From: Gammaproteobacteria bacterium
Lineage (GTDB): Bacteria > Pseudomonadota > Gammaproteobacteria > Xanthomonadales > SZUA-36
NCBI GenBank assembly: GCA_030431095.1
Contig: JAUIJU010000006.1
Location: forward strand, 42,664-106,663
DNA length: 64,000 nucleotides
Reading direction: 5' to 3'
Shown piece by piece: positions 36,111-50,097 of the stretch (position 1 is its first letter; every line of letters starts with the position of its first letter). Both the position numbers and the translations under genes were made by a program. Under the pieces are notes generated by a model. That model was not told the origin of the DNA. It was given only the letters and a program-made list of their open reading frames with translations, and did not search any database.

Positions 36111-36150
36111 TGTCAATCATTGTCACGCAAATTCAGGCAAATGTCATGCA
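36111..36150. promoter_or_regulatory. Candidate operator between regulator 2 and RHS 2
   Basis: TGTCA occurs at 36111, 36121 and 36142, i.e. spacings of 10 and 21 bp (one and two helical turns). TGTCAATCATTGTCA (36111-36125) matches the copy-1 element at 12 of 15 positions. AATGTCATGCA (36140-36150) is identical to an 11-mer in the copy-1 gap. Confidence 0.5.
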
Positions 36151-36226
36151 GGCTTTTCGCGGGGAGGCCACCGTGATTCAGCGCAATCCCGGTCCAGGAG
36201 TTGCGCCAGAAACTGGGAGAGTCACC

Positions 36227-39200
36227 ATGGCAAGCGCTCACGACCGTGTCGGGCATTCGCGTGTCCCTTTCGACCAGGCACATCCTCGCCGACTGCGGCG
36301 TACGAACGTGCCCCGGCGTCGCGACCGGGTCCGGCGCCTGCTGTGTCTGCTGCTGCTTGTCCTTGCCGCCCCGGCGTGGGCGCAAAGCGAACTCCAGGTC
36401 GGAACCGTCACGGCCGGGCCGGGCGACGAGGTTTTCCTCCCAGTTGACTTCGTCACCGACGGCTCGGTCGTGGCACTTCAGTTCGACCTGATCTACGACT
36501 CTGGCGTCCTGGACGTGACAGATACCGCCCCCGGGGCCGCTCTCGTCGATCACGCGCTCGACGCACAGCCGATCGCCCCGGGAAGACTGCGCCTGGTGGT
36601 CACGGCGAACAGCCTGACACCACTGGCGCCTGGACGGCTGCTCGACCTTCGCGTGGCCGTCGATCCACTGGCGGCCCCTGGGGACTATCCGCTGGTATTC
36701 GAGGCCGTGCGTCTCGCCGACGCCCAGGCCCAGCCACTGCAGCCGGATGCGCTGGTGGACGGACGGGTCCGTGTCGCGGCGCCGCCATCTCCCCCACCCC
36801 CCGCTGCGCCGGGCGCCGGCGACGGGGCCGGCGCCGTGCCGGTTCCCGGGTTGTCGATGGCGGGCCTGGCAGCGTTGTTCATGGCGGTGCTGGCATTGGC
36901 GTGGTTGTTCCTTCGCCATGGCGCCCGGGGCGTGGCGCTTTCGGTCATGACCGCCAGTGTCCTGCTCAGCTCGGTGGTTCGCGCCCAGGTTCTGCCCGGG
37001 GACGCCAATGCGGATGGCGAGGTCAACGCCCAGGACATCCCGTTCATCGTCGACGAGATCCAGGAACGCCAGGATGCACCCGGGGACGCGGACTGCACGA
37101 TGGATGGCGCGGTGGATGTCCTCGATGCCGTCTGTGTCCTGCAGCCGGGTGACGATCCGGACCCGGACCCGAATCCGGACAATCGGCCACCGCAACTCGA
37201 CGCCCTGTCAGACCGCCTGGTGCGTGTGGGCGATGCCGTGTCCCTGGTGGCCACGGCTACGGATCCCGACCTGCCCGATGACCGCCTGGCCTGGAGCCTG
37301 AGCCAGGGCCCGGTGGGTACGTCGCTGGCGCAGGTCGACGGCGCCCTGCTGTGGATTCCCTCGGACGACCACGTGGGCGACAACCCGTTTACCGTCCGCG
37401 TCACCGATGCCGCCGGCGCGTGGGACGAGCGGAGCTTCGTGGTCCAGGTCAGCCGGCGTGGCAACCCGCCCCGGCTCGAGGCGCTCACCGACGTGTCGCT
37501 CACGGTGGGCGACAGCCTCGACCTGCTCGCCCGGGCGAGTGACCCGGACCTGCCCGACGATCAGCTGACCTTTGCACTCGAACTCGCACCCGCAGGCCTG
37601 CTGCTGGACCCGGACACCGGCCGGCTGACGTGGGTGCCGGATGCCGGACAGGTTGGTTTCCACGACGTCAGCCTCACGGTGGCGGACCAGGATGGCCTGC
37701 AAGACTTCACCGGGTTCACGGTGGGCGTGTTCGCGGCCAATCGCCCGCCGGAGGGCAGCGCCGACCTGTTCACCGTGGAAATCGGTGGCGTGCTCGCGGT
37801 CGATGCGCCCGGGGTGCTCGACAACGATTCGGATCCGGATGGCGACGCGCTGTCGGCCGTGCTGCTCGACGGGCCCCAGAATGGCGACCTGGCATTCGAT
37901 GCCGATGGCGGCTTCGAGTACCAGTCCCGACGTCCCGAGCCGCTGGACGGCGACCCGCCTTACCTGGAAAACGTCAACCTGTCACTGGAGGCGGTGCCTA
38001 CGCTGGAGCCGTTCAATGTCAGTCACCTGCGCCACCTCGAGCGCATCGTCGACGGCGACCCGTCGACGTCCGGCTCGGCCCCGGGCGGGTTTTACCACCT
38101 GCCGCTCGAGGTGCGCTTCGACGCCGAAGATGTGACCGTACGCGAAGTGCGCATCTTCGGGGACCGGCTGGCCGATACGGCCATTGCCGACAACACTGAG
38201 GCCCAGGTTCGCTTGCTGGACCGCAACGGGGATGAGCTGTATCACAGCGGCGCCATTGCACTGTCCCTGCCCGACCGCGATGCCGTGCTGACCCTGGATC
38301 CGCCGGTGGCGGGCGTGCACGTACTGGAATACCGCGCCACGGCCTGGGACGGACCGGGCGGCCAGGGATTCATCCTGGGCGAACTGGAAATCCTGGGTGA
38401 CGGCACGCGCCAGCGCCTGCCGATGGTCGAGGAATGGCACTGGGACGGGGAGGGCACCGAGCGGCCGGACCAGGAAAACGTGCAGGCCACGCCGGTGGTC
38501 ATCGACCTGGACGATGACGAGGTGCCGGAGGTGGTGTTTGCCGCCGGACTGCGCGCGATCAGCCGCCCGATGGGCTGGGTGCAGATCCTGGACGGCGCCA
38601 CCGGCGAGGAAAAATTCCCGTCCGCGTTCTGCTCCGAGGTGGCCACGCACATGGCCGGCGGAGACATCGACGGAGACGGCTTCAACGAGGTGATCGCCGT
38701 TGCCGGCGAGCCGCTGAACGGGATCTGCCAGGCGCCCAATCCCTATCGCCTGCGCGCCATCGCCCACGACGGTACCGAGAAATGGCTGAGCGAGCCCATC
38801 GAGCGGCCCGCCGGCTGGGGCGCCGCCATCGTGCTGGCCGACCTGGACGGCGACGGCACCTCGGAGATCCTGCACGGGCGCCAGGCGCTGGACCACGAAG
38901 GGCGGCTGCTGTGGACCGCCGAGGGCGTGCTGGCCAACAGCTACCTGCCGGAAGTGGCGGACATCGACCTGGACGGCGAGGTCGAAGTGGTCTACGGCGG
39001 TTCAGTGTATGACCGCTTCGGCGTGCAGGAGTGGACCACGTCCTTCAACAAGGACTGGGCCGCGATCGCCAACTTCGACGATGACCCCTTCGCGGAGATC
39101 TTTGTCAACGGGCCCAACCGCTCGCAACTGTATGAGCATGACGGCCAGGTGGCGTGGGCCAGTTCGTACATCTCCGGTGGGCCGCCCACTGTCGGGGACT

Positions 39201-42200
39201 TTGACGCGGACGGCGCGCCCGAGATCGGCTTTGCGCGCGGCAGCGACTACGTCGTGCTGGAAACGGACGGCAGCCTCAAATGGTCGCGCCGCATCAAGGA
39301 TGGCTCGTCGGGACGCACCGGCAGTTCCCTGTTCGACTTCGATGGCGACGGCCGCATGGAGGTGGTGCAAAGCGACGAGGCCTATTTCCGCATCTGGGAC
39401 GGCGCCACGGGGAACGTTCGGTTCCGGGTGCCGCTGACCTCGATAACCAACACGGAACTGCCCCTGGTGGCGGACGTGGACGGGGACGGCCAGGCCGAGG
39501 TGCTGGTGCCGGCCAACGGCTGGCCCGAGCCCGGCACCGAGGGCGTCTACGTGTTCGGCGGGGCGGAGGACGACTTTGTCCGCGCCCGCCCAATCTGGAA
39601 CCAGCACGGCTACCACGTGACCAACGTGATGCCGGATGGCCGCATTCCCGCCGATGAGCCGCAGAACTGGCTGGTCTCAGGACTCAACCACCACCGCGTC
39701 AACGATTTCCTGCCCGACGAGCGGGCCAGGGCGGACCGTTTCACCTACGCGGCGCACGACGGTGAACTGGCGTCCGAACCGGTCGAGGTGTTCATCGACA
39801 TCGTGCCGGAGCGGTTCCCGCCTGTCATCACCTCCCTGCCGGTCGACCTGGCCAGCCCGGGATTCGAGTACTTTTACGACGTGCAGGCGGAAGACCGCAA
39901 CAAGGATCTGCTGACCTTCGGCCTGGCCGGCGCACCCGCGGGCATGACCATCGACGCCGGCACCGGCCTGCTTCGCTGGATGCCCGGCGAAGACGACCTG
40001 GGCCGCCACCTGGTGGACATCCGGGTGAGCGATCCGGATGGCGCCGAGGCCATCCAGGCGTTTTTCCTGGAGGTGCTGCCCGCGGTGGCAGTGCCGGACG
40101 TGGTCGGTGAAACCGAGGACGACGCAGCCACGCTGCTCGAGGCGGCCACGCTGAGCCCGGGGCGCACCTCCACCGCTTTCGACCCATCGGTCCCGCCGAA
40201 CCACGTCGCCCAACAGCAGCCCCCGGCGGGCTCGGTGGCGCCGGCGGGCGCCCGCGTGGACCTGGTGCTGTCACTGGGCGCGGGTCCGCAGGACACCGAC
40301 GACGATGGCGACGGTTACAGCGAGAACCAGGGCGACTGCGACGACGGGGACGACAGCCTGTACCCGGGCGCCGACGACACGCCAGGGGACGACATCGACC
40401 AGGATTGCGATGGCTTTGACGCCACCGAGCCCTTGAGCGCGCTGCTCGTCGCGCCGGGCGCACTGGACCTGCTGGTCGGTCAAAGCGCCATGGTGCAGGC
40501 TTGGGGTGCGTTTCCCGACGGATCCGCACAGCCGGTGACGTCCCTTGCATCGTGGAGCAGCAACGCCCCGGCCATTGCAACGATATCGGCGGCGGGTGAG
40601 GTCAGCGCCGTGTCCCCGGGAACGGCCGTCATCACTGCGAACCTCGGAGATGAGTCAGGCCAGGTCACGGTCGAGGTGACCGCTGTCGACCTGCAGGACG
40701 ATCAGGCGCCGGTGGTCCGGCTGATCGCCCCGGCGGATGGCGCCCATGTCGCGGGTCCCGTGGACGTTATCGGCACGGTGAACGATGACGCCTTGTATCG
40801 CTGGGAATTGTCCATGCTCCGTTCCGGCGACGCTGAAGCATCGGTGCTGGCCACGGGAGAGGGAGCGGTGCAGGCCGGTACGCTGGGTCAGATTGATCCG
40901 ACGCTCATGCGCAATGGAGCCTATACGCTGCGCCTGGCCGCCTTCGATCGCGGTGGCAACATCTCCGCGGACCAGTTGACGGTGTTGCTCGACGGGGAAA
41001 TGAAAGTGGGTCATTTCACGCTGACGTTCGAGGACCTCAATGTGCCCGTGGGCGGCGTACCGCTCACCGTGAACCGCGTTTACGACAGCCGGGACAAGCG
41101 GGTGGGGGACTTTGGTACGGGCTGGCGGCTGGGTTTCGATACCGTGGAGGTGAGTTGCTCCGCGGACCTATCATCCGGTTGGTACGTCCAGCGCGCAGGC
41201 ATGTCATTCCGGCTGCAGGCGACCCGCCCCCATACCTGCATGATCCTGATTCCCGGGCAACGTCCCATCGTTTTCGATCTCGTGACGACGCCCAGTGTTT
41301 CGCCGATCGTGCCGTTCCCGCCCTTCGCCATCCAGACCGGTTTGGTGCCCCGGGAACCCGCGTTCGGGACGCTCGAAATTCTCGGCAACAGGTCGGTCAG
41401 CATCTTCGATCCACAACCGGGTCCGGCGACGCTGGCGGACGACCTGACAGGCTTGCCCTGGGTGCCGGATCGGTTCGTGTACCGAACCCTGGAGGGCACG
41501 GAATTCACGCTGAGCAGGAATCACGGCCTGGAACGAATTCGTGACGCCAACGGCAATACCGTAACGATCGGATCCGACGGGGTAACGCATTCAGCAGGGC
41601 GTTCGATTTCATTCGAACGCAATCCGAGCGGCAGAATCGTCGCCCTGTCCGACCCCATGGGAGGGGTTCAGCACTATGACTATGACCGTCATGGAGACCT
41701 CTCCCGCCACACGGACGCCGTGGGAGGTGCGACCCGGTACCGGTACGACATCCGGCGAAACCTGGTCAACGTGACCGACGCGCTTGGCGCACGGGCGATT
41801 GTCAACGAATACGACGACCAGGGCCGCCTGATCGCCACGACGGATGCCAATGGGCACCGAACGGAGTTCGCGGTGGACCTGGATGCCCGCCAGTTCGTCA
41901 CCACGGACCCGAACGGCCACCAGGTCGTGCGTTCATTCGATGAATCCGGGAATGTGCTGACCGAGCAGAGAACCCTCACGATCGAGGGCGTTCCCACGGT
42001 CGCATTGACCACCAACAGCTACGACCCTGATGGCAACCAGACCGCGACGGTCGATCCGGACGGGGTGCGCAACACCTACGACTACGATGCCGACCGGAAC
42101 CTGACCCGGCTCACGACCCAGACGGGCGCCGGGGAGATGGCGCTGAGCCTGGCCTACGATGACCAGGGCCGGGTGACGTCCCGGACGGAGTTCAGCGGCG

Positions 42201-45200
42201 AAACCACCCTCATGACCTATGACGTGCGTGGGAACCTGACCGAACGTCGGGACGCATTCGGGGCAGTCACGCGTCACGCCTACGATGCGTCCGGGCGGCG
42301 TGTCGTCGACATCGATCCGAACGGAAACCGCCACGAGACCCGCTATACGGGCGTCGGTCTGGTTCGGCGTCGTGATAAATTCGATGCGTCGGGACAGCAC
42401 CTGTTCCGGATGGACTACGACCACGACGCCAATGGCAGATTGATCGCCACCACGGCCTACGTCGATCCCGAAAACGGCCTGGGACCCGTCATCCGAACGT
42501 ACGCATATGATGCGTCCGGCCGGCGGGTACTGGCCACGGACGCGGCCGGCAATGAATGGCGGTATGAGTATGATGCCGCCGGTCAACGAGTGGCGGAAAT
42601 CGATCCCTTTGGCCAGCGCACGGAATACCGGTACGACCCGGCGGGCCGCGTCATCGCCACGCGGTTCGCGGATGGCACGCAGATTCGTTCCGAGTACGAT
42701 GCGTTCGGCAACGAGGTCCGCTCGGTTGGGCCGGCAGGCCAGGTCACGCTGCATGAATACGACGAGGCCGGCCGTCGAGTTGCGACCGTGAGTCCGGACG
42801 GTCACCGCATCGAGATGGTCTATACGCCGGGTGGTCGACTGTCCGCCGTCATCGACCAGTCCGGCGCGCGCACCGACTACGAGTACGATGACGCCGGGCG
42901 AATCGTCAATGTCATTGGCCCGTCCGTCGAGGTCAATCTCAGTGGCGTGTTCGCGCGACCACAGACGCGCACGCAATACGATGGCAACGGCAACGTCGCG
43001 GCCACGATCGACGCCAATGGATTCGTCACCGGGTTCGCTTACGACCCTGCCGGGCGGGAAACTGGCCGCGTCTTCCCGGATGGAGCGACCATCAGCCAGT
43101 CCCACGATGCCAACGCCAACGTCAACCGCACGGTCGACCCGCTGGGTCTGGCCACCGAGTATCGGTTCGATGGGCTCGACCGCCTGGTGCGCGTTGAACA
43201 GCCGCCGGCATCACCAGGCGATCCTGTTTCGACCGTCAGTACGAGCGCCTATGACCCGCTGGGGAACCGGATTGCCCAGCAGGATGCGCTGGGACGGCTC
43301 ACGCGTTTCACTTACAACCCGTTGGGAGAAGTCACCAGCCGGGTGTTGCCGGGCGGGCAGTCCGAGCATTTCATCTACGAGCGCGGATTGCGCCTGTCTG
43401 AATCCGTGGACTTCAACGGCAGCGCCACCACCATCGAGTACGACGCCATGCACCGTGCCGTGCGGCGGACGTACGGCGGTGGCCTCGTCGAGGAATTCGC
43501 CTATACACCGACCGGCCAGGTGGCGTCCGCGACGGCCGATACCGGAACCACATTCTTTGACTATGACGAACTCGATCGTCTGGTCGAAATACGGCAGGCC
43601 GCCGGCGCAACGGTCGCCTATGCCTATACGCCACGCGGCGAGGTCGCGACCCTGACGGTCGATGGCCGCGAGCTTGCCGCATACGCCTACGACGCGCTTG
43701 GGCGACTGGTCGAAGTACAGACCGGCGAGGGAACCACGCGCTACGGGTACGACCTGGCCGGCAACCAGACGGTCGTGGAGTCAGCGAACGGCACACGGAC
43801 AATGCGGGCATTCGATTCCATGCGCCGGCTCAGCCGGATCCAGGAGATCGATGCGTCCGGTGTGCTCGTGCAGCAGCTGGACTACACGCGAGATGAGCGG
43901 GGCATGCGAGTCGCGACGGACGAGTTGAACGGCAGTCGTGAAACCTACGGCTACGACCAGCTCAACAGGCTCATCTCCCGGGAGCGAACCGGCGTCGGCG
44001 CGATCAGCGAGCAGTTTGAGTTCGATGCCGTCGGCAACCGGACCCGCGTGATCGACGCGACGGGTGACCGGCAATTTTCCTACGATTCCAACGACCGGCT
44101 CTACCAGGCCGGGGACGCCTCACTGGCCTATGACGCGGCCGGGAACCGCACCCGATTTCAATCCGGGAATGTCACCACGGACTACGAATGGAATGATCGT
44201 GGTCTGTTGAGTGCGGTGGAGACGAACGGACAGCGCACCGAGTTCGGCTATGACGCGCTGGGCAACCGGGTGGAGCAGCGCGGCGACTTCGAAGCCCTGG
44301 ACTTTGTCGTCGACATGGCCAGCGTTACGGGCCTGAACCAGGTGGTCGAGCACAGAGACCCGGCGGGCGATGTCCTGGGCGAAACGGTATTCGGCACCCA
44401 GCCACTTCATGCGCGTGCAGGCGGAGAGGTCCGGTTCCTGCATACCGACACGCTCGGCAGCATCACGCTGACCACCGATGCCGACGGTGGCGCGGCGGAG
44501 CCGCATCGATTCGCCAGTTTCGGCCGCGCGGAAACCCCGGAGGCAGCCCAATTGCCCCTGGGCTTCACCGGCCAGCAATTTGACCGCGAGACCGGCCTGC
44601 AGTACCTGCGCGCCCGATACTATGACCCCGGCACGGGTGTGTTTCTGTCCGAAGACCCCTTGCTCGGAAACCTGGCTGACCCCGTCACGCGTCACCGGTA
44701 TCTCTATGCGGCATCGAACCCGGTAAACTTCATCGACCCGACGGGGGAATACTCACTGGCCTCCCTGTCCGTCAGCCAGTCGATTTCCAACGTGCTCAAG
44801 GCCACCACGGCCGCAGGCCTGTTCTGCTCGGCGCTGGGCGCCACGGAGAACACCGCGACCCTGAAGGCCCTGTTCAACCTCGCCGTAACGGGCGCCAAGT
44901 ACGCCAATTCGGGGAGCCTGCCCAAGGATGCCACGGCCACCTTGCTGGATATCGACGACCCGTCGAGCCGGGTGGGCATTCAGAAGCTCAAGGTCGAACT
45001 CACGGCGAAAGGCGTCATGTCGGTGTCGGCGAAAAGCGACGGCAAACCGGAGGTGCGGTTCAAGCTCAATCTGAAAACCGGCCGTGTTTACGGCAAGAGC
45101 GCCGGGGAATTCGATGCGACCCTCGTCAAGTTGCGCAAGTGTGGCGGCGGCGTCGACGTCAAGCTCGAGTTGCTGGCCGAGGCAGACGGTAAAGTCGGCA

Positions 45201-45400
45201 AGGTCTCGGATCTGGATTTCGGCGCCCAGGCGGATTCCCCCACCGGATTCAGGGTCATCGGCGAATTCATCCTCGGCCCGGCGAGCATCAAGAAGTGGAC
45301 GTTCGCGGAGGTTCCGCCCGATGGCATCGAGAGCCTGTTCCGTGACATCGAGAATCGAAAGACGTCCTTCATTCTGTCACGTTACCAATTGAACCCGTAA
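36227..45400 (+). CDS. Giant secreted RHS/YD-repeat protein, copy 2
   Basis: A 3,057-aa paralogue of RHS 1. It starts with a basic n-region and signal peptide (RRLLCLLLLVLAAPAWAQ). The cohesin-like domain, Pro-rich linker, VPVPGLSMAGLAALFMAVLA helix with FLRHGARG, second hydrophobic stretch and dockerin-like GDANADGEVNAQDIP follow in the same order. The split cadherin-like domain here contains a discoidin-like segment (VREVRIFGDRLADTAI) plus an FG-GAP-type propeller (DIDGDGFNEVIAV). PASTA-like, MopE-like (DTDDDGDGYSENQGDCDDGD) and Big_2-like domains precede the RHS shell and core HRYLYAASNPVNFIDPTG. The unknown C-terminal domain matches copy 1 over nearly its whole length. The start at 36227 has a GGGAGA site 6 bp upstream; an ATG at 36146 is in frame. 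No immunity-type gene follows. Confidence 0.88.
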   Translation: MASAHDRVGHSRVPFDQAHPRRLRRTNVPRRRDRVRRLLCLLLLVLAAPAWAQSELQVGTVTAGPGDEVFLPVDFVTDGSVVALQFDLIYDSGVLDVTDTAPGAALVDHALDAQPIAPGRLRLVVTANSLTPLAPGRLLDLRVAVDPLAAPGDYPLVFEAVRLADAQAQPLQPDALVDGRVRVAAPPSPPPPAAPGAGDGAGAVPVPGLSMAGLAALFMAVLALAWLFLRHGARGVALSVMTASVLLSSVVRAQVLPGDANADGEVNAQDIPFIVDEIQERQDAPGDADCTMDGAVDVLDAVCVLQPGDDPDPDPNPDNRPPQLDALSDRLVRVGDAVSLVATATDPDLPDDRLAWSLSQGPVGTSLAQVDGALLWIPSDDHVGDNPFTVRVTDAAGAWDERSFVVQVSRRGNPPRLEALTDVSLTVGDSLDLLARASDPDLPDDQLTFALELAPAGLLLDPDTGRLTWVPDAGQVGFHDVSLTVADQDGLQDFTGFTVGVFAANRPPEGSADLFTVEIGGVLAVDAPGVLDNDSDPDGDALSAVLLDGPQNGDLAFDADGGFEYQSRRPEPLDGDPPYLENVNLSLEAVPTLEPFNVSHLRHLERIVDGDPSTSGSAPGGFYHLPLEVRFDAEDVTVREVRIFGDRLADTAIADNTEAQVRLLDRNGDELYHSGAIALSLPDRDAVLTLDPPVAGVHVLEYRATAWDGPGGQGFILGELEILGDGTRQRLPMVEEWHWDGEGTERPDQENVQATPVVIDLDDDEVPEVVFAAGLRAISRPMGWVQILDGATGEEKFPSAFCSEVATHMAGGDIDGDGFNEVIAVAGEPLNGICQAPNPYRLRAIAHDGTEKWLSEPIERPAGWGAAIVLADLDGDGTSEILHGRQALDHEGRLLWTAEGVLANSYLPEVADIDLDGEVEVVYGGSVYDRFGVQEWTTSFNKDWAAIANFDDDPFAEIFVNGPNRSQLYEHDGQVAWASSYISGGPPTVGDFDADGAPEIGFARGSDYVVLETDGSLKWSRRIKDGSSGRTGSSLFDFDGDGRMEVVQSDEAYFRIWDGATGNVRFRVPLTSITNTELPLVADVDGDGQAEVLVPANGWPEPGTEGVYVFGGAEDDFVRARPIWNQHGYHVTNVMPDGRIPADEPQNWLVSGLNHHRVNDFLPDERARADRFTYAAHDGELASEPVEVFIDIVPERFPPVITSLPVDLASPGFEYFYDVQAEDRNKDLLTFGLAGAPAGMTIDAGTGLLRWMPGEDDLGRHLVDIRVSDPDGAEAIQAFFLEVLPAVAVPDVVGETEDDAATLLEAATLSPGRTSTAFDPSVPPNHVAQQQPPAGSVAPAGARVDLVLSLGAGPQDTDDDGDGYSENQGDCDDGDDSLYPGADDTPGDDIDQDCDGFDATEPLSALLVAPGALDLLVGQSAMVQAWGAFPDGSAQPVTSLASWSSNAPAIATISAAGEVSAVSPGTAVITANLGDESGQVTVEVTAVDLQDDQAPVVRLIAPADGAHVAGPVDVIGTVNDDALYRWELSMLRSGDAEASVLATGEGAVQAGTLGQIDPTLMRNGAYTLRLAAFDRGGNISADQLTVLLDGEMKVGHFTLTFEDLNVPVGGVPLTVNRVYDSRDKRVGDFGTGWRLGFDTVEVSCSADLSSGWYVQRAGMSFRLQATRPHTCMILIPGQRPIVFDLVTTPSVSPIVPFPPFAIQTGLVPREPAFGTLEILGNRSVSIFDPQPGPATLADDLTGLPWVPDRFVYRTLEGTEFTLSRNHGLERIRDANGNTVTIGSDGVTHSAGRSISFERNPSGRIVALSDPMGGVQHYDYDRHGDLSRHTDAVGGATRYRYDIRRNLVNVTDALGARAIVNEYDDQGRLIATTDANGHRTEFAVDLDARQFVTTDPNGHQVVRSFDESGNVLTEQRTLTIEGVPTVALTTNSYDPDGNQTATVDPDGVRNTYDYDADRNLTRLTTQTGAGEMALSLAYDDQGRVTSRTEFSGETTLMTYDVRGNLTERRDAFGAVTRHAYDASGRRVVDIDPNGNRHETRYTGVGLVRRRDKFDASGQHLFRMDYDHDANGRLIATTAYVDPENGLGPVIRTYAYDASGRRVLATDAAGNEWRYEYDAAGQRVAEIDPFGQRTEYRYDPAGRVIATRFADGTQIRSEYDAFGNEVRSVGPAGQVTLHEYDEAGRRVATVSPDGHRIEMVYTPGGRLSAVIDQSGARTDYEYDDAGRIVNVIGPSVEVNLSGVFARPQTRTQYDGNGNVAATIDANGFVTGFAYDPAGRETGRVFPDGATISQSHDANANVNRTVDPLGLATEYRFDGLDRLVRVEQPPASPGDPVSTVSTSAYDPLGNRIAQQDALGRLTRFTYNPLGEVTSRVLPGGQSEHFIYERGLRLSESVDFNGSATTIEYDAMHRAVRRTYGGGLVEEFAYTPTGQVASATADTGTTFFDYDELDRLVEIRQAAGATVAYAYTPRGEVATLTVDGRELAAYAYDALGRLVEVQTGEGTTRYGYDLAGNQTVVESANGTRTMRAFDSMRRLSRIQEIDASGVLVQQLDYTRDERGMRVATDELNGSRETYGYDQLNRLISRERTGVGAISEQFEFDAVGNRTRVIDATGDRQFSYDSNDRLYQAGDASLAYDAAGNRTRFQSGNVTTDYEWNDRGLLSAVETNGQRTEFGYDALGNRVEQRGDFEALDFVVDMASVTGLNQVVEHRDPAGDVLGETVFGTQPLHARAGGEVRFLHTDTLGSITLTTDADGGAAEPHRFASFGRAETPEAAQLPLGFTGQQFDRETGLQYLRARYYDPGTGVFLSEDPLLGNLADPVTRHRYLYAASNPVNFIDPTGEYSLASLSVSQSISNVLKATTAAGLFCSALGATENTATLKALFNLAVTGAKYANSGSLPKDATATLLDIDDPSSRVGIQKLKVELTAKGVMSVSAKSDGKPEVRFKLNLKTGRVYGKSAGEFDATLVKLRKCGGGVDVKLELLAEADGKVGKVSDLDFGAQADSPTGFRVIGEFILGPASIKKWTFAEVPPDGIESLFRDIENRKTSFILSRYQLNP
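41520..44530 (+). repeat. RHS/YD repeat array in RHS 2
   Basis: Same YDxxGR-type repeats as in copy 1 (YDDQGRLIATTDANGH, YDASGRRVVDIDPNGN), ending at the RHS core. Confidence 0.9.
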
Positions 45401-47223: not shown

Positions 47224-48588
47224 TCAGTAAGATTCGTCTGGGGGGTGGGGGCCGGCCATTGGGTCGGCCCCTGTTTCGTTGTCCTTCCCGTCCGCCGCGC
47301 GCCGGACCTCGAACGGGCCACCGGGCCCGTTGCGCAGCATGACCTCGCGGTGCGGATAGGGAATGTGAATGTCGTGTTCCTTGAAGGCGTCCCACAGGGC
47401 CAGCAACACGGTACCGCGGATATTGGTCAGTCCCTGCCTCGGGTCGGTGATCCAGAAGCGCAGGATGAAGTTCAGGGACGAATCGCCGAAGGCCGTCAGC
47501 CAGCACACCGGCGTACGTCCCGAGTAAACCCGCCGGCACGCCGAGGCCGCTTCGATGGACAGCCTGATGACCTCGTGCGGATCGGCGTCGTAACTGACCC
47601 CGAATTCCACGTCCAGGCGCACCAGCTGGTCCGAAAACGACCAGTTCACCACCTGGGTGGTGATGAAGTCTTCGTTGGGAATCAGGTACTCACGTCCATC
47701 GCGGGTGACCACCGACACGAAACGCGCGCGCAGCTCGCGTATCCAGCCGAAGGTTTCGCCCAGGGTAATGGTGTCGCCCGGCTTGATGGATCGGTCCATC
47801 AGGATGATGATCCCGGAGATGAAATTGGAGACCACTTTCTGCAGCCCGAAGCCCAGGCCCACGCCGATGGCGCCGGAGAACACGGCGAAAATGGTCAGGT
47901 CGATGCCCAGGCTGGAAATTCCCACCAGCACGGCGGCCGTGATCAGGGCGATCTTCACCACCTTGCCCAGCAGCACGCGCAGCGAAGGCGACAGGTCCTC
48001 GAAGCCTTCCAGGCGGCGCTCCAGGAAATTGCCCACGGTGATCGCGCCCCACAGCAGCACGCCCATCAGCAGCAGCATCTTGACGATCAGCAGGGCAGAC
48101 AGGCGGAACCCGCCCACGGCGAAGCCCGCCGCGTCCAGCAGCCGCGCCATGTCGTCGTCGATGTTGAGCACCACCAGGGCCACGTAGACCCACACCACGC
48201 CGGCCACCAGGCCACTCAGGGCGCGGTTGCGAATCATCCGGGAGACCAGCGCGATGGCCAGCCAGGCCAGGGCCAGGATCAGGGTGGTCTTGATCAGGTA
48301 CTGCGAGCCCGGCCAGCCGATGGAGCGGGTCAGCAACAGGGTGATTCCGCTGAGCGCCACGAAAAACAGCCATTCCATCCGCCGCAGGAACAGCGACAGC
48401 ACCCGCAGCAGTCGCGGGTTGGGATCGCGGATGGCGCGGATACGCTTTTCCAGGCGCGGCTTGAAGGCGCGCGCCAGCTGCCAGCTGACGACCAGCAGGA
48501 ACGTCACGATCAGCAATTGCATCAGGATCTGGGCGCTGCCGAGAAAATCCAGCAGGCGCTGCCCCAGTTCCCTGGCGAGGTACATCAT
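47224..48588 (-). CDS. MscS-family mechanosensitive channel
   Basis: A 454-aa inner-membrane protein. The first ~200 residues hold about five hydrophobic helices (LMQLLIVTFLLVVSWQLA, ALSGLVAGVVWVYVALVVL). The pore-forming MscS core follows: GISSLGIDLTIFAVFSGAIGVGLGFGLQKVVSNFISGIIIL. The beta domain carries IKPGDTITLGETFGWIREL and IPNEDFITTQVVNWSF. Such channels open under membrane tension and release solutes during hypo-osmotic shock. The product is longer than E. coli MscS (286 aa), owing to extra N-terminal helices, as in the YbdG/YnaI-like groups. Two adjacent ATG codons make the start ambiguous by one codon. Confidence 0.92.
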   Translation of the reverse strand: MMYLARELGQRLLDFLGSAQILMQLLIVTFLLVVSWQLARAFKPRLEKRIRAIRDPNPRLLRVLSLFLRRMEWLFFVALSGITLLLTRSIGWPGSQYLIKTTLILALAWLAIALVSRMIRNRALSGLVAGVVWVYVALVVLNIDDDMARLLDAAGFAVGGFRLSALLIVKMLLLMGVLLWGAITVGNFLERRLEGFEDLSPSLRVLLGKVVKIALITAAVLVGISSLGIDLTIFAVFSGAIGVGLGFGLQKVVSNFISGIIILMDRSIKPGDTITLGETFGWIRELRARFVSVVTRDGREYLIPNEDFITTQVVNWSFSDQLVRLDVEFGVSYDADPHEVIRLSIEAASACRRVYSGRTPVCWLTAFGDSSLNFILRFWITDPRQGLTNIRGTVLLALWDAFKEHDIHIPYPHREVMLRNGPGGPFEVRRAADGKDNETGADPMAGPHPPDESY

Positions 48589-48783
48589 GCGTTCGATGGT
48601 GGGGTCCCCCGGTCCGAATCGGATTCCATGCTAAACCATTCGGCGTGATCCTGGCGTTGACGCAAGCTGCGTGACGGAATGGTGTCCGCAATGACCCGAT
48701 CGGCGGCCAGACCGTTGCTTTTATCGCCGCGTGCGGACACCATAATGCACATCCTGATCGCACCCTGGAAAGGAGGAATGCTC

Positions 48784-49083
48784 ATGGCGAGCGAAGGTTA
48801 TCACGAGCCCCTGGAGGAGCTCAGCGACGAAACACGAGACATGCACCGGGCCATCGTATCCCTCATGGAGGAACTCGAAGCGGTGGACTGGTATCAGCAG
48901 CGCGTGGACGCCTGCAAAGACGAAGAATTGAAGAAGATCCTGGCCCACAACCGAGACGAGGAGAAGGAGCACGCCGCCATGGTGATCGAATGGATCCGGC
49001 GACGTGACCCCAAGTTCGACGAGGAATTGCGGGACTACCTGTTCACGGAGGGCCCGATCGGCCATCATCACGAAGACCACTGA
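48784..49083 (+). CDS. EncFtn-like ferritin without a shell-targeting tail
   Basis: A 99-aa helical protein matching the encapsulated-ferritin (EncFtn) family: HEPLEELSDETRDMHRAI, SLMEELEAVDWYQQRVDA, LAHNRDEEKEHAAMVIEWI and LRDYLFTEGPI. The Glu and His residues of EELE and DEEKEH form the di-iron ferroxidase site in the family, at the dimer interface. Characterised EncFtn proteins end in a long tail with an encapsulin-targeting peptide. This one stops at GPIGHHHEDH, with no such tail, and no encapsulin gene is in the window. AGGAGG lies 7 bp before the ATG at 48784. The in-frame ATG at 48778 is too close to that site, and the ORF-track start is too long. Iron oxidation in the cytoplasm is inferred. 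Confidence 0.88.
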   Translation: MASEGYHEPLEELSDETRDMHRAIVSLMEELEAVDWYQQRVDACKDEELKKILAHNRDEEKEHAAMVIEWIRRRDPKFDEELRDYLFTEGPIGHHHEDH

Positions 49084-49185: not shown

Positions 49186-50097
49186 ATGAAACATACAACG
49201 CGTCTTGTATTGATTTTGCTCGTAGTTCTCACCACCGCGGCCTGTTCGACGCCCGGTGCGAAAAATTTCACCAGTTCACGCCTTAACTGCGCGCTGCTCG
49301 GCGGCGCGTTGGGCGGCGGCGCCGGCGCCTTCGACGATTCCGACACCGCTGTTGCCGGTGCGGTCATCGGTGCGGCCATCGGCGCCATCTTCTGCGGTGA
49401 CAAGGACACCGACGGCGACGGCGTGAAAGATGGCAAGGACCAGTGCCCCGGCACGCCCCCGGGTTCCCCGGTGGACGAGTTCGGCTGCGAATTCGATGAC
49501 GACGGCGACGGCGTCGTGAACAGTGAGGACCGCTGCCCGAATACGCCCAAGGGCGTGGCTGTCGATTCCCGTGGTTGCGAACGTGACGACGACAACGACG
49601 GCGTCGGCAACAGCAAGGACCGTTGCCCCGGTACGCCGGCTGGCGCCAAGGTCGACCAGTACGGCTGCGCCGACACCGACAAGGACGGCGTCAACGACTA
49701 CCGTGACAAGTGCCCGAACACGGCGCCTGGCATGGCGGTCGACAACGACGGCTGCGACCTCGACAAGGAATATCGCCTGGAAGGCGTGAACTTCGAGTTC
49801 GACTCGGCCACGCTGACGGCCGAGGCCAAGGCCAAGCTGGATGACGACGTGCAGATCCTGCTGCGCCACTCCGACCTGAAGGTTGAGATCGCAGGTCACA
49901 CCGACAGCGTCGGCGCCGAGTCCTACAACGAAGGCCTGTCACTGCGCCGCGCCACCTCCGTGCGTGACTACCTGGTGGAGAAGGGCGCCAACCGCGCCAA
50001 CCTGACCGTCAAGGGGTACGGCGAGTCCGCCCCGGTGGCCAGCAACGACACCAGCGAAGGCCGGGCCCAGAACCGGCGCGTGGAGTTCCGTCACTAA
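49186..50097 (+). CDS. OmpA-family lipoprotein with thrombospondin type 3-like repeats
   Basis: A 303-aa protein with a lipoprotein signal (LVLILLVVLTTAAC). A Gly-rich glycine-zipper segment follows (ALLGGALGGGAGAF, AGAVIGAAIGAIF). Four Asp-rich calcium-type repeats of the DxDxDGVxDxxDxCPxTP kind span ~80-190. The C-terminal OmpA-like peptidoglycan-binding domain shows NFEFDSATLTAEAKAKL, IAGHTDSVGAESYNEGLSLRRA and NRRVEFRH. It likely ties the outer membrane to peptidoglycan, and calcium could stiffen the linker. It is monocistronic and ends at a strong terminator. Confidence 0.93.
   Translation: MKHTTRLVLILLVVLTTAACSTPGAKNFTSSRLNCALLGGALGGGAGAFDDSDTAVAGAVIGAAIGAIFCGDKDTDGDGVKDGKDQCPGTPPGSPVDEFGCEFDDDGDGVVNSEDRCPNTPKGVAVDSRGCERDDDNDGVGNSKDRCPGTPAGAKVDQYGCADTDKDGVNDYRDKCPNTAPGMAVDNDGCDLDKEYRLEGVNFEFDSATLTAEAKAKLDDDVQILLRHSDLKVEIAGHTDSVGAESYNEGLSLRRATSVRDYLVEKGANRANLTVKGYGESAPVASNDTSEGRAQNRRVEFRH

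Follow-up and report, generated by a model that had tools for sequence, protein, structure and literature searches.

Does an encapsulated-ferritin-like (EncFtn-like) protein with neither a targeting peptide nor a neighboring encapsulin gene work inside a shell or free in the cytoplasm? The question is raised by a gene at 48784-49083 (+) of the 64,000-nucleotide stretch of gammaproteobacterial contig JAUIJU010000006.1 that was analyzed here (the window). Its open reading frame (ORF), which we judge to be real, encodes 99 aa followed by TGA. The product belongs to the EncFtn family, keeps all catalytic residues, and has no tail and no detectable encapsulin partner. We read it, with a probability of roughly 0.78, as a short tailless EncFtn (a short ferritin-like protein, s-FLP, or Non-EncFtn) that acts as a decameric ferroxidase free in the cytoplasm. 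Taken by itself the gene is unremarkable, but the pattern seen across its taxonomic class bears on a question left open by a 2024 review, namely whether s-FLPs are encapsulated.

48770..48777 (+): strong Shine-Dalgarno AAGGAGGA, from sequence, ending 6 nt upstream of ATG 48784
48784..49083 (+): short EncFtn-like ferritin (s-FLP), 99 aa (PF22277, TIGR04535, match to 3k6c)
48868..48879 (+): codons E29-E32, with entry-site E29 and E32 and ferroxidase E30 (E29, E30 and E32 each in 181/181 short homologs; roles from PMC5012862)
48892..48894 (+): codon Y37, the equivalent of ferroxidase-center Tyr39 of R. rubrum EncFtn (Y in 180/181)
48946..48972 (+): codons H55-H63 (HNRDEEKEH), with exit-site H55, E59 and E62 and ferroxidase E60 and H63 (E59, E60, E62 and H63 in 181/181, H55 in 180/181)
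49054..49065 (+): codons P91-I92-G93-H94, forming the I-x-H terminus conserved in short EncFtns (H94 in 173/181 aligned short homologs, an alignment-dependent count in a gappy column)
49066..49080 (+): codons 95-99 (HHEDH), a variable His-rich extension, predicted to be disordered (from homolog ends and the predicted local distance difference test, pLDDT)

Family, fold and active site

The 99-aa protein scores 153 bits against Pfam PF22277 (EncFtn-like; cut-off 27), above the gathering score, and 143 bits against NCBIfam TIGR04535 (cut-off 125), and more than 500 homologs are present in public genomes. A second in-frame ATG at 48778, which abuts the Shine-Dalgarno sequence, is less probable as the start codon than ATG 48784; a promoter and terminator scan at the locus yielded nothing useful. 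The AlphaFold2 model (mean pLDDT 86, both ends disordered) predicts two long antiparallel helices (residues 15-43 and 47-74) and a short C-terminal one (76-87). This predicted EncFtn fold finds its best match in the Protein Data Bank in 3k6c, with R. rubrum EncFtn second, and 3k6c is also the best solved relative by sequence (E = 2e-46).

In the presence of Fe2+, R. rubrum EncFtn assembles into a decameric ring that has di-iron centers between its subunits, and its ferroxidase (E32, Y39, E62, H65), entry (E31, E34) and exit (H57, E61, E64) residues have been described (PMC5012862). Aligned with an offset of -2, the equivalents in the window protein are E30, Y37, E60 and H63 for the ferroxidase center, E29 and E32 for the entry site, and H55, E59 and E62 for the exit site. 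All of these residues are present, and they are invariant or nearly so in an alignment of 181 distinct short EncFtn homologs. Profile scores and residue alignment thus bear out the preliminary description of the locus, in which an EncFtn-like product with ferroxidase motifs had been proposed. The gene is under purifying selection, since its differences from the copy of a genus-mate (L021) are distributed 10/6/42 over first, second and third codon positions.

The C-terminal end and a known class of short EncFtns

The protein terminates in YLFTEGPIGHHHEDH, with PIGHHHEDH as its last residues, and no targeting peptide resembling LxVGSL or LxIGSL was found at this end. Such a peptide is carried by tailed relatives (L133-L147), unlike the window protein. 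The preliminary description had likewise placed the end at HHHEDH without a targeting peptide, with the reservation that a frameshift might conceal a tail. Translation confirms the end, and neither the read-through nor the other two downstream frames contain an LxIGSL-like motif. Length and the missing tail, taken alone, together with the patchy presence of the gene within the genus, could point to a truncated or decaying EncFtn whose tail disappeared through a frameshift or stop codon and which is itself being lost. This is extremely unlikely given the 181 distinct homologs of the same length class with an invariant active site, the strong third-position bias of the changes, and the absence of a tail from every downstream frame.

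Most short homologs stop at residue 95, as I-A-H-x, whereas the window protein and its close kin end GHHHEDH or GHHHD. With a pLDDT of about 55 for residues 91-99, the His-rich end is predicted to be a variable, disordered extension beyond the conserved I-x-H. The preliminary description had offered a metal-related use of this end, and a functional metal-binding or sensing element that lends this lineage an additional activity, such as buffering of Ni, Zn, Co or Fe, would be consistent with the conservation of H94 across short EncFtns and with terminal H/D runs in several unrelated-looking lineages (HHHD, HHSHDH, EHEHKG, KHHHD). We consider such a role unlikely, as the run past residue 95 is absent from most homologs and predicted to be disordered, and metal-resistance gene families do not recur near the gene in 80 loci from public genomes. 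Short and tailed EncFtns differ at core positions as well: C44 is found in 178/181 short but 6/19 tailed proteins, and E81 differs too.

Tailless, shell-less EncFtns have already been described. Proteins lacking the encapsulin sequence were named Non-EncFtn by He et al. 2016 (PMC5012862); they were first classed as non-encapsulated ferritin-like proteins (FLPs) by Giessen & Silver 2017, according to the review of Eren et al. 2024 (PMC11202242), which uses the name s-FLPs for the short tailless forms and does not settle whether they are packaged. The window gene is therefore not a novel kind but one further member of a known, widespread class: it has an EncFtn core of the expected length (about 95-103 aa) without targeting peptide and without an accompanying encapsulin gene, the latter in an assembly that is itself incomplete and in relatives that are near complete. 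The targeting peptide and adjacent shell gene of the encapsulin-cargo form (FLP-TP) are both missing.

The closest solved member, 3k6c, is the 95-aa s-FLP NE0167 of Nitrosomonas europaea, tailless like the window protein; the review, the only source that a literature search on NE0167 returned, states that it forms decamers (PMC11202242). The two proteins share length class, active-site residues and fold and are about 79% identical (78-80%) over the aligned core. They differ in that 3k6c ends ...PIAH-x, whereas the window protein has an additional HHEDH, and in that Trp36 of the window protein is Leu in 3k6c. The window protein also shares its fold with R. rubrum EncFtn (Rru_A0973, 5da5), as well as every residue of the ferroxidase center, entry site and exit site. 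The EncFtn-encapsulin fusions of the P. furiosus type (5n5e) share a distant EncFtn core (E = 7e-4) but are joined to a shell domain, which the window protein lacks.

Encapsulin in the genome, the family and the class

No encapsulin gene adjoins the EncFtn gene, whose neighbors encode an MscS channel and an OmpA-family protein, and tblastn with encapsulins of the source's taxonomic class found none in the 64-kb window (best E 0.49), as the preliminary description had stated. A whole-genome search, which it had suggested, was run with the PF04454 profile for family 1 encapsulins and returned no match in the source draft genome, which is 87% complete; three control genomes were positive. An encapsulin protein from a member of the class also had no match in the source genome, in a search without positive control, and PF19307 (family 2 encapsulins) gave none there, a weak result because its control was silent as well.

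Because the source assembly is only 87% complete, the genomes of relatives matter. PF04454 has no match in any of 39 genomes of the family (the source and 38 others), 25 of which carry a short EncFtn gene (the source and 24/38 others). Two genus-mates (G016 and G020) that are 98-99% complete lack encapsulin and have EncFtn copies ending GHHHD; within the genus, the gene is present patchily.

A sample of 369 genomes from the taxonomic class, spanning many families, gives the broader pattern. Matches above the cut-off were found in 101 genomes for PF22277 and in 19 for PF04454, and the EncFtn type was assigned by reading the gene ends, with 91-103 aa counted as short. None of the 78 genomes with only short EncFtns contains an encapsulin, while all 19 genomes with a tailed (targeting peptide-bearing) or fused EncFtn do (table 78/0/0/19; Fisher p = 1.4e-20, a value that overstates independence, the sampled genomes being related). 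The table omits three matches, of which G040 and G065 are fragmentary and G125 is marginal. Four of the 19 encapsulin genomes hold a short EncFtn beside the tailed or fused one. Since short-only EncFtn and encapsulin are mutually exclusive in 97 genomes, we conclude that s-FLPs are usually not encapsulated. The co-occurrence table adds modestly to what is known of the class and indicates that a ring ferroxidase without storage shell is widespread.

The protein might nevertheless be encapsulin cargo, with a shell gene in the unassembled part of the genome whose product would attach to the short I-x-H terminus or to some other surface. The incompleteness of the draft allows for this, encapsulation of s-FLPs is sterically possible according to the review (PMC11202242), and TIGR04535 bears the name "encapsulin-associated ferritin-like protein". 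We regard it as very unlikely, given that PF04454 is absent from every family genome, among them those of near-complete genus-mates that share the HHHD tail, and that encapsulin in the class sample always accompanies a tailed or fused EncFtn and never a short one alone. The same counts disfavor the shell encoded elsewhere that the preliminary description had listed among three options, and make a protein free in the cytoplasm the best supported of them. The TIGR04535 name misleads for the window protein, which scores above the cut-off yet has no encapsulin. The class-wide pattern shows that it does not fit most gammaproteobacterial-type members, and the misleading annotation is likely to be widespread.

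By analogy with R. rubrum EncFtn and 3k6c, two-helix subunits of the cytoplasmic protein would pair across a ferroxidase interface, with a di-iron site coordinated by two Glu and one His from each subunit, and ten of them would assemble, in the presence of Fe2+, into an open ring of D5 symmetry. The ring would oxidize Fe2+ to Fe3+ and thereby limit free ferrous iron. Oxidation of ferrous iron is probably its function, as storage of mineral is impossible without a shell; because an open ring cannot hold mineral, the ferric iron would go elsewhere, conceivably to acceptors such as the ferritin-superfamily cages encoded in the same genome, or be precipitated. Two PF00210 ferritin-superfamily genes, for bacterioferritin or Dps, are found elsewhere in the source genome. 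That short EncFtns form a separate functional branch, whose I-x-H end docks the ring on a ferritin cage or an unknown acceptor as a shell-free iron-oxidizing relay, seems to us improbable.

Several points weigh against a ferroxidase free in the cytoplasm. The review leaves room for encapsulation of s-FLPs via an undefined sequence (PMC11202242), and co-packaging is possible in the four class genomes where an encapsulin system and a short EncFtn occur together. The gaps in the source assembly count here too, as does the family 2 encapsulin search, empty with a silent control.

One genome of the class sample, without encapsulin, encodes a 122-aa EncFtn (L187; G112 contig 20, 65265-65513, -) with a K/A/P-rich tail (EKPAAKPKAAPKAKKPTPKSE) and no targeting peptide. 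EncFtn-encapsulin fusions have been described mainly from archaea; in a genome of the window's own class (G234 contig 227, 5531-6205, -; L212 / L150), a single open frame of 492 aa joins an EncFtn core to an encapsulin domain matched over its second half, profile positions 116-252. The shell portion seems to be incomplete, and a short EncFtn (L166) is encoded in this genome too. Repeated switching between tailed and short forms, for which parsimony gave 3-4 changes, is not claimed, because a single tailed clade was not rejected (p-AU 0.58, approximately unbiased test).

Genomic surroundings

47224-48588 (-): divergent MscS-type gene
49186-50097 (+): OmpA-family gene

Among the 80 loci from public genomes, no neighbor family occurs in more than 7, and no encapsulin lies in the flanks. 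Within the family, a small MscS gene lies 7-75 bp upstream of the EncFtn gene in 18/25 genomes (counted from coordinates). This region has thiolase, enoyl-CoA hydratase-type and hotdog-type genes upstream and, downstream, genes of the frmA-type dehydrogenase and S-formylglutathione hydrolase types, all named by reading the sequences. A functional MscS-FLP operon was rejected, since the whole region is syntenic and is also found lacking the ferritin gene, on a different contig of the source genome as well as in further genomes of the family; the adjacency thus reflects regional synteny, and the window copy sits at a different site. In this genome (L249:3762-4624, G000 contig 133), where the ferritin gene is missing from that site, the small MscS gene is split over two frames, which may reflect decay or a fault in the assembly.

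In its relocated position, the ferritin gene once more has an MscS-type gene as neighbor (window 48588-48784), a different one, 25% identical and divergent, possibly by coincidence. The nearest rows in the tree include Sneathiella (Alphaproteobacteria) and family members, with support not resolved, and horizontal transfer of the gene is possible. Further upstream, a 3084-aa ORF (window 36146-45400, +) appears, from its translation, to contain RHS/YD-type repeats and immunoglobulin-like stretches.
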